From contig NZ_CP071463.1 of the NCBI RefSeq assembly GCF_017352095.1, positions 992,001 to 1,056,000 on the forward strand: a stretch of 64,000 bases of DNA. Direction: 5' to 3'. This DNA is from Natrinema longum (GTDB taxonomy: Archaea; Halobacteriota; Halobacteria; Halobacteriales; Natrialbaceae). Of this stretch, positions 25,126-30,833 are shown one piece after another (the first letter of the stretch is position 1; the number at the start of each line of letters is the position of its first letter). Below the pieces are notes generated by a model. It was not told the origin of the DNA. It did not search any database and worked only from the letters and a program-made list of their open reading frames with translations. The translations under genes were made by a program, and so were the position numbers.

Positions 25126-25330
25126 CCGGCCGGCCATACGGACGGCCGCCGTCATACGGGTTGCTGGCCCGGGTGACCGGCGACCCACAGACGAGTTGTG
25201 GGGTCGCCGGCACTGACTGACAGCGGTCCGTATCGGTTCTCGAGTGCTGTCCACGGAGGATGGGGCCGTGAGTACGTCGCGAGCTACGACCGTCGAATCG
25301 CTTATCGCTCCTCGGCAGGTTGTCACGTGT

Positions 25331-25495
25331 ATGACCCGCACGACCTACCAGTGTCCGTGTGGTGCCCGCATCGAATTCAGACACGACCTCGAGAAAGAGC
25401 GGGGAACGGTAACGCCGAGCTGGAAGTGTACGGACTGTGGGACGCCGGTTCCAGGGATGACCGCGGAGAAAATCAGACACCAGCACCCGTCCTGA
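25331..25495 (+). CDS. Small zinc-ribbon protein
   Basis: 54 aa: MTRTTYQCPCGARIEFRHDL, then SWKCTDCGTPVPGM. C8-x-C10 and C34-x2-C37 give a single zinc ribbon. The start is the ATG at 25331. Proteins like this are widespread in archaea with unknown roles, probably nucleic-acid or protein binding. Native codon use supports a real gene. Confidence 0.7.
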   Translation: MTRTTYQCPCGARIEFRHDLEKERGTVTPSWKCTDCGTPVPGMTAEKIRHQHPS

Positions 25496-25556
25496 GCCGT
25501 CGACTCGGTGTGGAGCGACCCGTTCGTGAGAACTGTCGTCGAAAAGACACATACAC

Positions 25557-25572
25557 GATATATCGATATATC
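25557..25572. repeat. 16-bp perfect palindrome
   Basis: GATATATCGATATATC reads the same on both strands. It is the only AT-rich block between the zinc-ribbon gene and the recombinase-like gene, so it could be an operator combined with a TATA element, or a recombination site. Confidence 0.8.
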
Positions 25573-25576
25573 AAAT

Positions 25577-25616
25577 CCGCCGGCCGGCCCGGAGGTGTGG
25601 CGCTTCCGGCCGGCGG
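25577..25616. repeat. Strong inverted repeat (11-bp stem)
   Basis: CCGCCGGCCGG (25577-25587) pairs perfectly with CCGGCCGGCGG (25606-25616) around an 18-nt loop. The GC-only stem would be very stable in RNA or cruciform DNA. It begins 4 bp after the palindrome at 25557 and ends 69 bp before the small ORF at 25686. Confidence 0.75.
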
Positions 25617-25685
25617 CGCTCGTCCGTTTCCGACCCCGTGAGACCGAAACACGGATTTAGCCTCGTGAAACTACTATCGGACGAG

Positions 25686-25760
25686 ATGATCCGTGGTGGC
25701 ACGCTCACGATCCGTCTCGGCCGTGGTGGGGAGCGCCTCGAGCAGGTGATCGGCCCGTGA
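25686..25760 (+). CDS. Possible 24-aa leader peptide
   Basis: ATG at 25686 opens MIRGGTLTIRLGRGGERLEQ and stops at 25758-25760. The stop overlaps the GTG start of the recombinase-like gene (CCGTGA), the arrangement of translational coupling. GC-rich third positions fit. It may be a real microprotein, or only the means by which ribosomes reach the GTG start. Confidence 0.4.
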   Translation: MIRGGTLTIRLGRGGERLEQVIGP

Positions 25761-26881
25761 CCGCGGTCGCGATCACGGACGCGGTCGACGCCTATCTCCA
25801 GCGAAAGGCCGTCGGCGATCCCGATAGTTCGGGTGCGGGTGCCTACGCCGCCAACGCCGAATCGATCCTCCGGCGATGGGCCGAGTGGCTCGAGCGAGAA
25901 CACGAGATCGGCTCGATCGTCGCGCTGTCGGTCGAGCACATGCGCGCCTACGCCACGGAACTGCGTCGTCGAACCGAACGCGGGGAGTACACTGCGTCGA
26001 CCGCCGACACCTACTACGCCGTGGTGCGGGCGTTTCTCTCGTGGTGTGTCCGCGGCGGGATCCTCGAGGACAATCCCGCGGCGCGCGACCGCGCCGAGGC
26101 TGCGCTACCGACGGCCGAGACGCGGTCGCCGAACGACTCCTGGACGGCCGATCGACGCCGCGAACTCGAAGGATACGTCAGGGAGCGGGCGATCGAGGCC
26201 GGCACGCGTTCGACGAGGGAGCGACGCACGCGGTTGCGCGAGTACGCGATGGTGGCCGTCCTCGCCCACTCGAGCGTCCGCGGGGCCGAACTGTTCCGAG
26301 CGCCCGAAGACGACCGACGCACGGGGGCGACTTGGGACGACGTCGACTTCTATACCGGGACGATCCGCGTGCTGGGGAAGTCCCAGCGCCTCGAGGACGT
26401 TCCCCTCCCCGCCCGTGCCCGGACGCCGTTGCGTCGGTACCGGGTCGTGCTCGATCCGCCGTCGAACGACTGGCCGCTGTTTCCCACGGGGCACGCGCCG
26501 TCGATCGCGAGTCAGGTGCGAGCGAGCCTGCGCGAACGGGGGTACGACGAGAGCGAGATCGACGCCCTGTTCGCGGACGCGACGGCGGTGGAACTCGCAC
26601 GCGAGCGGTCGATCGCGCCGCCAGCGATCACGACCGAGGGTGCCCGATCGGTGTTGAAGCGCCTCTGTGAAGGGGCCGGCGTCGACGTCGACGGGAACTA
26701 CCTGACGCCACGGGGCGTCCGTCGAGCGGAGACGGACGATCCGTATCGACGCGAGGCGACGGCATCGAAGCCGACGCTTCGGGCATCGGTACTCGAGCAG
26801 TCGATCGCCGTGCCGGCAGACCGGCCGTTGATTCGCGATATCGACGCGGGGTCCCACGACGAGTCGACGGAAACCGACTGA
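25757..26881 (+). CDS. Tyrosine-recombinase-like protein with lost catalytic residues
   Basis: 374 aa from GTG 25757. The N-terminal SAM-like core-binding domain (ESILRRWAEWLEREHEIGSI, SWCVRGGILEDNPAA) and a catalytic-type domain follow the XerC/phage integrase plan. R175 in SSVRGAELFR and a beta-hairpin Lys (K208) are kept. The expected H-x2-R box reads TPRGVRR, so His is Arg319 while Arg322 remains, and no Tyr stands at the usual nucleophile site (RPLIRDI near 356-362). Cleavage is therefore improbable. It may serve as a DNA-binding or architectural factor. It is preceded by a tiny overlapping ORF and two inverted repeats. Confidence 0.75.
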   Translation: MTAVAITDAVDAYLQRKAVGDPDSSGAGAYAANAESILRRWAEWLEREHEIGSIVALSVEHMRAYATELRRRTERGEYTASTADTYYAVVRAFLSWCVRGGILEDNPAARDRAEAALPTAETRSPNDSWTADRRRELEGYVRERAIEAGTRSTRERRTRLREYAMVAVLAHSSVRGAELFRAPEDDRRTGATWDDVDFYTGTIRVLGKSQRLEDVPLPARARTPLRRYRVVLDPPSNDWPLFPTGHAPSIASQVRASLRERGYDESEIDALFADATAVELARERSIAPPAITTEGARSVLKRLCEGAGVDVDGNYLTPRGVRRAETDDPYRREATASKPTLRASVLEQSIAVPADRPLIRDIDAGSHDESTETD

Positions 26882-26973: not shown

Positions 26974-28806
26974 CTAGACGAGCAGCCAGAGGAGCACCGT
27001 CAGGAGGAGCGTCAAGAGGAGGACGGTCGTCCCGATGCCCGTCCGGAGGTGGATCGTGGACGGGCGACCGCCGTCGGTCGGCTGGCGCTCGTCGACGTCG
27101 ACCAGCCAGTTTGGAAGCCGGCCGGCGGCCGCGTCGACCGCGAGGACGGGATTGTTGCCGATCCAGTAACAGCGCGTGACCGCGCCCACGACGGCCCGGT
27201 CCACGGCAGCGTAGGTCTCGGTAACGGCGAGCATCGTCCAGCGGCTGACGCTGTAGGTCGCCGGGTAGACGACCATCGCCGGATCGCCGAGATCGAGCTT
27301 CGAGAGCGGTTTCCGGACGACGACGAAGACGACCGCTGCCACCCCCGTCAGGATCCCCGCTGTCTCGAGGTGAGACGGACTGTAAGGGTGGAGGTGGCCC
27401 TCGCCGCCGGAGTACGCGAAGGCGAAATCGCTCCCGTGAATCGTCGGCGCGAGGTCGGCCAGTCCCTGCCACCAGACGCCAAAGAGGAGACAGGCACCGC
27501 CCAACCCGAGCATCGCGACGGTCTGGCCGGGTTTGGCGTCGGCGACCTCGAGATCGCTTTCGCCGTGGAAGAAGACGTAGTAGCCGAGCTTGATAAAGGA
27601 AAGTAGGGTTCCGATCGCACCGAGCCAGAGCAGCCAGTACAGCGCCTGGTACTCGGGCTGGCCGTAGTAGCCCGGATCGGCGGCGTCGAAGATCATCCCC
27701 TTACTGACGTAGCCGTTGAAGCCGGGGATCGCAGTGATCGAGAGCGCCCCGAGGCCGAACCCGACCGCGGTCAGTGGCATCTCGCGCCAGAGCCCGCCGA
27801 GGTCGTACAGATCCTCTTTACCCGTGCGGTAGATGACCACGCCGACGGCCATGAACAGCAGGCTCTTGAAGAGGATATTGTTGAAGAGGTGGCTCATCGC
27901 GCCGGCGACGGCGAGATTGGAGCCGATCCCGATCGCGGCGACGATGTAGCCGAGCTGGGCCTGGATGTGATAGGACAACAGCGCCCGCATGTCGTGTTGG
28001 AGCAAGGCGAAGGTCGCGCCGTAGACGGCCATCAGGCCGCCCATGTAGGCGACGTAGATCGAGAGATCGCTCTCGCTCCCGACGGGGAACGCCCGGTAGA
28101 GGACGAACGCGCTCGTCTTGGTCGTATAGACCGAGAGGAACACCGACGCCGCGATGTGGGGTCGCGGGTAGGTGTCGGGGAGCCACGTGTGGACGCCGAT
28201 GAAGGCGACGTTGACGCCCATCCCGAGTACGGCGAGCAAGGCCGGAACGCCGTCAGCGATACCGCCCGCGTCGTAGACGAACGTGCCCGCCTGGATGTAG
28301 TGGACGGCGACCGCCATCATCACGAGTACACCGCCGGTGCCGTGGAACAGCGCGTACCGGAAGCCAGCCCGAACCGCCTCGCCGCCGTAGTGCCAGACCA
28401 CGAGCGTGCTGGTGACGGCCATCAACTCCCACATGAACAGGAGGACGAGCCAGTCGCCGGCGAAGGCCGCCCCGATCGACGAGGCGACGTAGACGAGCGC
28501 GAACGCGACCAGCGTCTTACTGGCCTCGCTCGAGTAGGCGTAGATGACGCTACAGACCCCGAGGAAACCGAGGCCGAGGCCGACCATCCGGGAGAAGTCG
28601 TCGACGTAGAAGGGGACGACCTCGAAGCCGAGGAAGGTCCCGGCCAGATGCTGGCCCTCGGGTGCGACGAGCGAGACCGCCAGGACGGCCGCGAGGCTGA
28701 GCGCGCCGACGGCGAAGCCGGCGATTCGGGGGAGGACGAGCACGAGCACCGCCGCCGCGAAGACGAGCAACGGCGGGTAGGCCATCGACAGGACGTCGAG
28801 TGCCAT
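26974..28806 (-). CDS. mrpD: Mrp-type Na+/H+ antiporter, third NuoL/M/N-like (MrpD) subunit
   Basis: 610 aa, with about 14-16 hydrophobic segments. The proton-translocating core shows the family's conserved Glu and Lys helices (LLFMWELMAVTSTLVVWHYG; HTWLPDTYPRPHIAASVFLS). It is the last gene of the antiporter operon. Its ATG at 28806 overlaps the stop of the preceding MrpD-like gene (TAATG). Together the three paralogues should form the proton/sodium channels of the complex. A separate His-bearing loop (GEGHLHPYSPSH) precedes the C-terminal segments. Confidence 0.88.
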   Translation of the reverse strand: MALDVLSMAYPPLLVFAAAVLVLVLPRIAGFAVGALSLAAVLAVSLVAPEGQHLAGTFLGFEVVPFYVDDFSRMVGLGLGFLGVCSVIYAYSSEASKTLVAFALVYVASSIGAAFAGDWLVLLFMWELMAVTSTLVVWHYGGEAVRAGFRYALFHGTGGVLVMMAVAVHYIQAGTFVYDAGGIADGVPALLAVLGMGVNVAFIGVHTWLPDTYPRPHIAASVFLSVYTTKTSAFVLYRAFPVGSESDLSIYVAYMGGLMAVYGATFALLQHDMRALLSYHIQAQLGYIVAAIGIGSNLAVAGAMSHLFNNILFKSLLFMAVGVVIYRTGKEDLYDLGGLWREMPLTAVGFGLGALSITAIPGFNGYVSKGMIFDAADPGYYGQPEYQALYWLLWLGAIGTLLSFIKLGYYVFFHGESDLEVADAKPGQTVAMLGLGGACLLFGVWWQGLADLAPTIHGSDFAFAYSGGEGHLHPYSPSHLETAGILTGVAAVVFVVVRKPLSKLDLGDPAMVVYPATYSVSRWTMLAVTETYAAVDRAVVGAVTRCYWIGNNPVLAVDAAAGRLPNWLVDVDERQPTDGGRPSTIHLRTGIGTTVLLLTLLLTVLLWLLV

Positions 28807-30833
28807 TAGTCGGTCACCTCCGTCACGAGTTCGTCGAGGGGAACGGTTCCTAGCTCCTCGAACGGCATCCCGAAGACGCCCTCGACGATCCGGGTCGCTA
28901 ACTCGAGGAAGACGGCGTAATCGGGGCCGATCCCGAGGACGATCGCGCCGGTCGCGATCACGGCGATCGGCGCGAGCATGAGCCACGTACTCTCGGTAAC
29001 CGGCGAGTGTCGTTGCCAGCCGTCGGCGGGCGGCCCGCCCGTGAGGTGATCGTCGCGGTCGCCGTGGTGGTCGACGACGCCGACGGCGTCGTCGTGGTGG
29101 TCGGCAGCGTCGTCCTGATCGACGGCGTCGTCGTGGCCCGTGCGGTCGTCGTCACCGGGGCGATCGGCGGCGGAAGTTGTATCGGTCGACGCGTCCCCCG
29201 CGTCGGCGGTTGTGTGATCGCTCGGGTATTTGTCGACGGCGTACTCGGCGTCGCCGTCCGGTTGGGCTGTGGGTTCCGTATCGGACACCTCCGGGGAGTC
29301 CGTCGGTTCCCGGTCGGGTCGGCCCTTCTCACCGCCATCCGTAGCGATGCCGTCGTCCGGTTGATCGGGACCGTACGAACGGCGCAGGCCGCCTCGGGGG
29401 AACTCGAGGAGCGGTTTCGCGTCGTGGCGGTCCTCGCTCTCGAAGAACGCGGTGTAGACGACCGGCCAGAAGTACGCGACGTTGAGGACCGCCGAGAGGA
29501 GCAATGCGGCGGCGAACAGCCAGTACTCGCCGCCCATGGCACCGGCACCGATCAGCATGTAGAACTTGCTGACGAAGCCGGCGATCGGGGGCAGCCCGGC
29601 CATGCCGGCCGCACCGACCGTAAAGGCAGCCATCGTCAGCGGCATCCGTTTGCCGATGCCGGCCATCTCGCTGATGTAGTCGGTGTGGGTCTCGACGTGG
29701 ATCGCGCCGGCACAGAAGAACAGGGTGAGCTTCGCGAAGGCGTGTGCCGGAATGTGGAAGAGAGCCCCCACCATCGCGTAGGGATGGAGCATCGAGAGCC
29801 CGAGGACGATGTAGGACAGCTGTGCCGTCGTCGAGTAGGCGAGCCGGCGCTTGAGGTGATCCTTGCGCATCGCGATGATGCTCGCAGCGGTCAGCGTGAA
29901 CGCGGCGACGAGCGCGACCGGAATGTTCAACCCGACCTCGCCGATACCTGGCACGTCCAGTGGCAGGTCGTGAATCAGTCCGGGCCCGTAGACCTCGAGG
30001 ATGACCCGAGCGATGCCGAACGCACCGGATTTGACGACTGCGACGGCGTGGAGCAGCCCGGAGACGGGGGTGGGCGCGACCATCGCGTCGGCGAGCCACG
30101 AGTGTAAGGGCATCAGCGCGGCCTTGACGCCGAAGCCGGCGATCAGGAGGAAGAAGGCGGCCTGTGCGTAGACCGGTTCTGCCTGGGCAGCCGCCGCGAG
30201 TGCCTCCATCCCGCCGGCCTCGAAGGCCAGCGTCGGGTCGCCGACCACGCTCGTCAGCCAATAGATCATGACCGTGCCGGCGAGCAGGAAGACCCCGCCG
30301 CCGAAGAACGTGTACGTGAGGTACTTCCGGCCGGCGATGCGGGCCTCGCTGTCCTCGTTGTGGGCGACCAGCGGGTAGGTCACCAGCGACAGCAGTTCGT
30401 AGAAGACGAAGATGGTCACCAGGTTCGCGGCGAACGCGATCCCGACGGCGGCCGAGAGGCTAGCCGCGAAGGAAGCGAAAAAGCGCGTCTGGGAGTGTTC
30501 GTCGAGCCCGCGCATGTAGCCCGTTGCATAAAAGGACGTGAAGATCCAGAGGAAACTCGCGAGCAAGGCGAAGAAGATCCCCAGTGGATCGGCACGCAGG
30601 GCGAAGTCGACTCCCGCGAGGAACTGGATCCCCGTCGAGTCGGCGAGACTCCACCGGAAGGTTTCGCCGCCCATGACCGCGGGGAGCATGCTGACGACGA
30701 TCCCGAACTTCGTGAGTGCGGCCAGCACGGACCATCCTTCGCGGAGGTTCGGCCGGCGATGCGACGCGACGATCAGGGCGATGGCGACCGCCGACACCAA
30801 CACGGCGGCGAGCGGTCGGATGTCTTCGACCAT
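28806..30833 (-). CDS. mrpD: Mrp-type antiporter, second MrpD-like subunit with an acidic His-rich loop
   Basis: 675 aa, about 130 longer than the other D-type subunits. The membrane core matches the NuoN/MrpD family (FYELLSLVTYPLVAHNEDSE; PLHSWLADAMVAPTPVSGLL; KDHLKRRLAYSTTAQ). Between the penultimate and last hydrophobic segments, roughly residues 490-620, lies an insert very rich in Asp and His (DDAADHHDDAVGVVDHHGDR). It could bind metal or buffer charge on the membrane surface. The gene overlaps both neighbours through TAATG junctions. Confidence 0.88.
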   Translation of the reverse strand: MVEDIRPLAAVLVSAVAIALIVASHRRPNLREGWSVLAALTKFGIVVSMLPAVMGGETFRWSLADSTGIQFLAGVDFALRADPLGIFFALLASFLWIFTSFYATGYMRGLDEHSQTRFFASFAASLSAAVGIAFAANLVTIFVFYELLSLVTYPLVAHNEDSEARIAGRKYLTYTFFGGGVFLLAGTVMIYWLTSVVGDPTLAFEAGGMEALAAAAQAEPVYAQAAFFLLIAGFGVKAALMPLHSWLADAMVAPTPVSGLLHAVAVVKSGAFGIARVILEVYGPGLIHDLPLDVPGIGEVGLNIPVALVAAFTLTAASIIAMRKDHLKRRLAYSTTAQLSYIVLGLSMLHPYAMVGALFHIPAHAFAKLTLFFCAGAIHVETHTDYISEMAGIGKRMPLTMAAFTVGAAGMAGLPPIAGFVSKFYMLIGAGAMGGEYWLFAAALLLSAVLNVAYFWPVVYTAFFESEDRHDAKPLLEFPRGGLRRSYGPDQPDDGIATDGGEKGRPDREPTDSPEVSDTEPTAQPDGDAEYAVDKYPSDHTTADAGDASTDTTSAADRPGDDDRTGHDDAVDQDDAADHHDDAVGVVDHHGDRDDHLTGGPPADGWQRHSPVTESTWLMLAPIAVIATGAIVLGIGPDYAVFLELATRIVEGVFGMPFEELGTVPLDELVTEVTD

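Follow-up and report, generated by a model that had tools for sequence, protein, structure and literature searches.

Within a 64,000-nucleotide stretch of the Natrinema longum genome (the window) there is a gene, which we will call P, for a tyrosine-recombinase homologue without the usual histidine and tyrosine of the active site. The gene begins inside the stop codon of a short upstream ORF (uORF). What does such a protein do for its host, and why is its gene arranged in this way? An earlier note, made from the sequence of the window, had viewed P as a domesticated, non-cutting DNA-binding protein whose translation is coupled to that of the small ORF. We propose that P was recruited by the host from a tyrosine recombinase in the ancestor of most Natrialbaceae, and that it has since been domesticated and is catalytically dead. 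Its simplest role would be that of a DNA-binding protein such as the prophage repressor MrpR (probability roughly 0.7 for this explanation as a whole). The features of the locus are listed in Table 1.

Table 1. Features of the P locus, in window coordinates.
Feature	Position	Strand	Remarks
Promoter box CCGAAACACGGATTTA	25644..25659	+	BRE CGAAA at 25645-25649; TATA-like TTTA at 25656-25659
uORF	25686..25760	+	24 codons + TGA; ATG start, probably leaderless; 4-nt overlap with P start
Shine-Dalgarno-like AGGTGATC	25744..25751	+	from the sequence; precedes P start
P, tyrosine-recombinase homologue, predicted to be catalytically dead	25757..26881	+	374 aa; GTG start
R175 codon (Arg-I)	26279..26281	+	R in 83/83 orthologues and 23/23 active-type sequences
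K208 codon (beta-hairpin Lys)	26378..26380	+	83 orthologues: K 63, R 12, T 7, S 1
C-terminal tail, residues 317-374, replacing the His/Trp-III and Tyr helices	26705..26878	+	from the alignment; family motif LR....EQSIAV
Degenerate HxxR box RGVR (R319 for His; R322 = Arg-II)	26711..26722	+	from the orthologue alignment
Na+/H+ antiporter (Mrp/Mnh-type) subunit ORF	26974..28986	-	Pfam PF00361; convergent, usual neighbour of P

Fold and catalytic residues of P

In HMM libraries, the tyrosine-recombinase match of P stops at about residue 231-239 because its catalytic end has diverged. The XerC model from NCBIfam matches residues 38-231 only (E = 8.1e-11), far under its cut-off, and the Pfam hits to Phage_int_SAM_1 (6.7e-4) and Phage_integrase (0.074) are both under theirs. 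A profile search of PDB sequences with P gave nothing significant (XerD, E = 0.24).

The predicted structure of P is more informative. An AF2 model from 22 P sequences and three active paralogues has a pLDDT of 77.1, and it leans on those paralogues: a model from orthologues only was poor (pLDDT 59.7). In the better model, P is ordered to about residue 316 and is predicted to be disordered from 317 on, with pLDDT under 50 throughout the tail. Foldseek's best match to this model has E = 5.3e-6, and recombinases were still on top with the poor model. With VIA-align, P aligned to Cre (5crx; Z 13.9, rmsd 4.2, 251 aligned) and to the Tn1549 Int (6en2; Z 13.8, rmsd 3.7, 252 aligned). The best Xer, Cre, and Int structures have Z of 13-15, and their alignments mostly reach about residue 333, which is short of the Tyr helix. 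By its predicted structure and by its homologues, P has the core-binding and catalytic domains of the superfamily. The recombinase fold, which the earlier note had assumed along with the first arginine, is well supported.

To locate the catalytic columns, we aligned 106 sequences: 83 orthologues (bit score of 390 or above), three f17 relatives, and 20 others. A fragment (L032) and identical ORFs were taken out beforehand. We use "active type" in a sense defined by residues: Arg-I, Lys, HxxR, and Tyr are present in 23/23 of these sequences, and His-III in 21/23. Against the 23 active-type relatives, Arg-I corresponds to R175 of P, Lys to K208, the histidine of HxxR to R319, and Arg-II to R322.

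Arg-II is conserved in 74/83 orthologues. The HxxR histidine is nearly always replaced (R in 71, S in 5, G in 3, V in 2, and H in just 2); the earlier note had seen this arginine in P. The nucleophile column has Tyr in 23/23 active-type sequences versus 1/83 orthologues (L092), and P itself has no Tyr there. The position of the active His-III holds A, T, E, V, or S in the orthologues. The R of LR in the family's tail motif is kept in 82/83, and otherwise the tail and the HxxR region differ from genus to genus.

Could a tyrosine at a shifted position take over, as the earlier note allowed? No Tyr is found past the HxxR column in 27/83 orthologues. The one recurrent Tyr column (52/83) aligns with another Tyr of the active enzymes, not with the nucleophile. 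Among the 83 orthologues there is no conserved substitute, and the same losses recur across them.

Two orthologues, L082 and L086, still carry the HxxR histidine, and at the place of the LRHxSI...Y of active enzymes their sequences are LRETFLEQSIVV and LRSTFLEQSIAV. Since they have HxxR and not the LRH...Y, the nucleophile end was probably lost first, and the HxxR histidine later. The P family is a graded series of catalytic losses.

Of the defining features of integrases, P has Arg-I and lacks both the nucleophile Tyr and the HxxR box. Because two defining features fail, we do not class P as an integrase. From the residues it has lost, P is predicted to have no recombination activity, and that it does not cut DNA is a well-supported reading.

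Conservation and selection

The earlier note raised the possibility that related strains might not conserve P. On the contrary, orthologues (55% identity or above) are found in 114 of 125 Natrialbaceae genomes and in 26 of 29 genera, counting one fragment (G036) among the 114. Any match at all is found in 124/125. The 11 genomes without an orthologue include every member of three genera; ten of the 11 have weaker matches only (G001-G006, G013, G014, G020, and G120; best E from 1e-39 to 6e-77), and the family search found no match in G035, which is 77% complete. The closest named relative of P, from Natrinema ejinorense, is 97% identical. Across the family and order searches there are also homologues at 37-52% identity, and the top-scoring match outside of Natrialbaceae, among 392 genomes of the order, is 52% identical.

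The best-scoring relatives outside the family are active-type haloarchaeal integrases (L104-L106, from G279, G228, and G153; 48-52% identical). They are collinear with P up to the LR before His-III. Unlike P, they have the full set of Arg-I, Lys, HxxR, His-III, and Tyr. No match to the antiporter cluster was found around them within the 9 kb fetched. As for a viral origin, three pattern-led scans of the viral_contigs collection found no relative of P there, and tblastn found no match to P within the phage collection.

In a midpoint-rooted tree of 68 chosen sequences, a branch of length 0.92 with support 100/100 sets the P sequences (45 of the 83 orthologues, hand-picked) apart from 20 active-type sequences and the three f17 relatives. 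We also computed dN/dS for 21 close pairs, which were hand-picked and have some members in common. The core of P (codons 1-315) has a ratio of 0.13, its tail one of 0.30, and the uORF, excluding its last three codons, one of 0.80. Because the losses in P are common to the whole family and the core has a dN/dS of 0.13, they are not the result of chance or decay.

The downstream neighbourhood is stable. A homologue of the antiporter subunit lies downstream of P on the opposite strand in 68 of the 83 orthologue loci, within the fetched stretch; the homologue in L094 (from G084) is on the same strand as P and upstream of it. For the other 14 loci, there is none inside the fetched stretch: 12 have one no more than about 4.2 kb away, the only one in G079 is about 200 kb off, and G124 carries its homologue on another contig. 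The gap between P and the antiporter is about 2.5-4.2 kb in G119, G085, G099, G007, and others.

The upstream side is variable. Over 22 loci, the distance from a zinc-ribbon gene to the promoter box ranges from 63 to 5589 nt. In five loci, an integrase gene lies on the opposite strand about 1.4-5.2 kb upstream of P (L015, L016, L017, L067, and, on pHTUR04, L154:10119-11390). The first four of these integrases show active-type residues, and the one in L154 is known from its annotation alone. This side of P looks insertion-prone in other genera. We searched the window and 27 loci for tRNAs with ARAGORN, found none, and rejected a tRNA-borne attachment site.

The short ORF and the promoter upstream of P

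As described in the earlier note, the GTG of P overlaps the TGA of the uORF (GTGA at 25757-25760). Of 77 testable orthologues, 74 have a uORF whose stop overlaps the start of P (68 by 4 nt and 6 by 8 nt), although this fraction overstates the number of independent cases because the genomes are related. If the intervening stretch is shuffled with a random indel, 18.5/77 overlaps are expected by chance. An overlap that is conserved beyond chance is a hallmark of termination-reinitiation, and the frame test also speaks against the overlap being a by-product of any GTGA or ATGA start with a Shine-Dalgarno (SD) motif. An SD-like string (at least 5 nt) stands ahead of the chosen P start in 64/82 orthologues, a count that is biased upward because our script favoured starts with an SD.

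The exceptions are few. Six of 83 sequences have no box or ATG by our rule (L048, L082, L086, L098, L100, and L101). Nonetheless, an overlapping ATG frame is listed for L082, L086, L098, and L101, and in L048 the script misplaced the start of P and the promoter box is present. The three failures among the 77 are L092, with the stop 7 nt ahead of the start, and L030 and L102, where the rule picked the wrong ATG and another ATG gives an overlapping frame of 26 codons.

The uORF varies from 14 to 81 codons. Because its length and residues drift and its frame and overlap do not, the coupling seems to be what is selected, and the uORF seems to be conserved as an architecture and hardly as a peptide. 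The earlier suggestion that orthologues might share the small ORF therefore holds for its frame and overlap and fails for its peptide, given the dN/dS above. That P is probably made by reinitiation from the uORF, in keeping with the coupling that the earlier note suggested, is well supported by these comparisons, and we infer that the uORF itself has a leaderless start.

In Haloferax volcanii, 72% of transcripts are reported to be leaderless (PMC4983044), and the SD motif is reported not to be used for initiation at a 5'-UTR (PMC3986360). Coupling was reported for 13/14 overlapping gene pairs (PMC6728339). As described there, such termination-reinitiation pairs share with P the 4-nt overlap of stop and start and the SD before the second start. 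In those pairs both frames are genes, whereas at P the first frame is a drifting and probably leaderless uORF. For archaea, where SD reportedly did not drive 5'-UTR initiation (PMC3986360), the uORF provides a natural and replicated case for separating reinitiation architecture from peptide function.

The promoter box upstream of P has the consensus AcCGAAACACaGATTTA (from 59 of 74 sequences with at most 2 mismatches). It lies 24-30 nt before the ATG of the uORF (28 nt in 46/74), and it outscores 20 shuffles in 62/82 upstream regions. Haloarchaeal promoter motifs are reported to be BRE CGAAA and TATA TTWT (PMC4983044); the TTTA of the box resembles TTWT, inexactly. Of 29 Natrinema genomes, 28 have the exact box upstream of P and G061 has it with 1 mismatch; the exact box is at no other site in these genomes. 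Allowing one mismatch gives 23 further sites in the 29 genomes versus 5 for a reversed control, and allowing three gives 40 sites in N. longum's own genome versus 3 for the control. Since exact copies in these genomes are found only at P, the box is a candidate operator for P. It may instead be a plain strong core promoter. One of the one-mismatch copies, CGAAACATAGATTTA, is at G000:C1:2236601-2236615 on the minus strand, and likewise in G060, G063, and G069. A different variant, GGAAACACCGATTTA, is shared by G057, G058, G059, G071, and G074.

The earlier note had pointed to 25557-25616 as the region that P might bind. We rejected this region for its lack of conservation alongside P: of 82 upstream regions, 9 beat 20 shuffles with its left part and 5 with its right part, versus 62 with the promoter box. 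The right part scores best in the near-identical N. ejinorense, which shares part of it.

An AT-rich element like CGATATATC follows the zinc-ribbon gene of the window (element at 25550-25577; gene at 25244-25495). Similar AT-rich stretches lie behind the zinc-ribbon gene in L004, L006, L007, L009, and L044, even where the gene is over 1 kb from P. In L004, L006, and L007, the element is 1.4-1.6 kb from P's box.

The role of P

A dead recombinase can be a repressor: MrpR (YopR) is described as the master repressor of the Bacillus prophage SPbeta (PMC10516654). According to the same report, MrpR (PDB 8A0A) has the tyrosine-recombinase fold, as P does, and it lost its recombinase function and binds DNA. 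VIA-align matches MrpR (8a0a) to P with Z 9.9 and rmsd 17.3 over 236 aligned residues. The two proteins differ in what was lost. In MrpR, Arg-I, His, and Trp/His-III are replaced and Lys169 and Tyr304 are kept (Table 3 of that report), while P retains Arg-I, Lys, and Arg-II and has lost His and Tyr. Also, MrpR is encoded by a bacterial prophage, whereas P is a family-wide archaeal gene with a uORF. SroF, the repressor of phage phi3T (PDB 9RD5 and 9RGL, bound to DNA), is another fold match (9rd5; Z 11.8, rmsd 6.7, 250 aligned). Judging from the titles of the structure entries, SroF is unlike P in being a phage protein with an antirepressor.

Haloarchaeal integrases are described as a major part of the archaeal tyrosine recombinases in a review with 17 families (PMC8371274), and neither "inactivated" nor "domesticat" appears in its main text. 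In the open-licence text of PMC, we recognised no report of the P family, and none of a uORF conserved in this way. Dead recombinases that act as repressors were already known, as with MrpR; P differs in which residues were lost, in the spread of the gene across an archaeal family, and in its uORF.

P orthologues form a single group under purifying selection, in a stable neighbourhood, with the Tyr end gone and the HxxR histidine nearly always gone. The fold and the retained phosphate-contacting residues suggest that P binds specific DNA. We predict that P clamps its site with the core-binding domain and the truncated catalytic domain, without cutting. It would act as a regulator or as a site-occupying protein, most simply as a repressor of its own conserved promoter, so P may be autoregulated. 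From the comparative anatomy of the locus, the transcript would begin at or near the ATG of the uORF. Ribosomes would translate the leaderless uORF and halt at the overlapping TGA; the SD-like AGGTGATC would then hold them until they reinitiate at the GTG of P. The uORF would be a runway for ribosomes whose peptide is not itself selected.

A bolder version is that P is a core sequence-specific regulator of the family, controls itself via an operator-promoter, and is made only through a uORF conserved purely as an entry ramp for ribosomes. We put this forward tentatively, as less likely than not. If true, it would be a reinitiation device with selection on the frame and the overlap and not on the peptide.

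Could P instead be the non-catalytic partner in a recombination synapse, providing DNA binding or architecture while an active paralogue cuts? Arg-I, Lys, and Arg-II are mostly kept, many genomes of the family have two or more matches, and an active-type relative lies upstream of P in L015, L016, L017, and L067. Yet the genome of the window keeps P with just one further match (E = 0.003, 28% identity, residues 34-122). Also, in the tyrosine-recombinase fold the C-terminal end is exchanged between protomers, and this is the end that is replaced in P. We consider a partner role unlikely. A role in immunity, in which P would guard an attachment-like site and block integration by related mobile elements, seems no more probable: it fits with the variable DNA upstream of P and with the integrase genes in five loci, but those integrase genes adjoin an open P.

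It is quite improbable that the uORF is a coding gene for a small protein that works with P. It is in the same place in 74/77 orthologues, and there is some preference for residues at positions 3-6 (R 37, G 36, V 30, and D 31 of 74). However, a dN/dS of 0.80 speaks against a conserved small protein, as does its range of lengths, and uORF peptides have 19% Arg and 11% Asp+Glu versus 14% and 17% in P. Least credible of all is that P is a decaying integrase pseudogene. Catalytic losses and a less conserved tail would be expected of one, but not a gene that is found in 114/125 genomes with an open frame (374 codons in the window), a core dN/dS of 0.13, and Arg-I in every aligned orthologue. We therefore favour a domesticated, non-cutting protein, as the earlier note did, with DNA binding suggested by the fold.

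The 12 plasmid records with a match to P at over 60% identity call the orthologue a "recombinase XerD", a "site-specific integrase", or a "hypothetical protein". Such labels likely mask a regulatory or structural DNA-binding protein. Annotations place the antiporter cluster next to P on the 172-kb pHTUR04 of Haloterrigena turkmenica and on a 207-kb plasmid of Natronorubrum aibiense. In several genera, P is on plasmid records of 160-400 kb (one of 987 kb), versus a contig of 3.59 Mb here, a pattern that hints at a conserved chromid or at replicon fusion.
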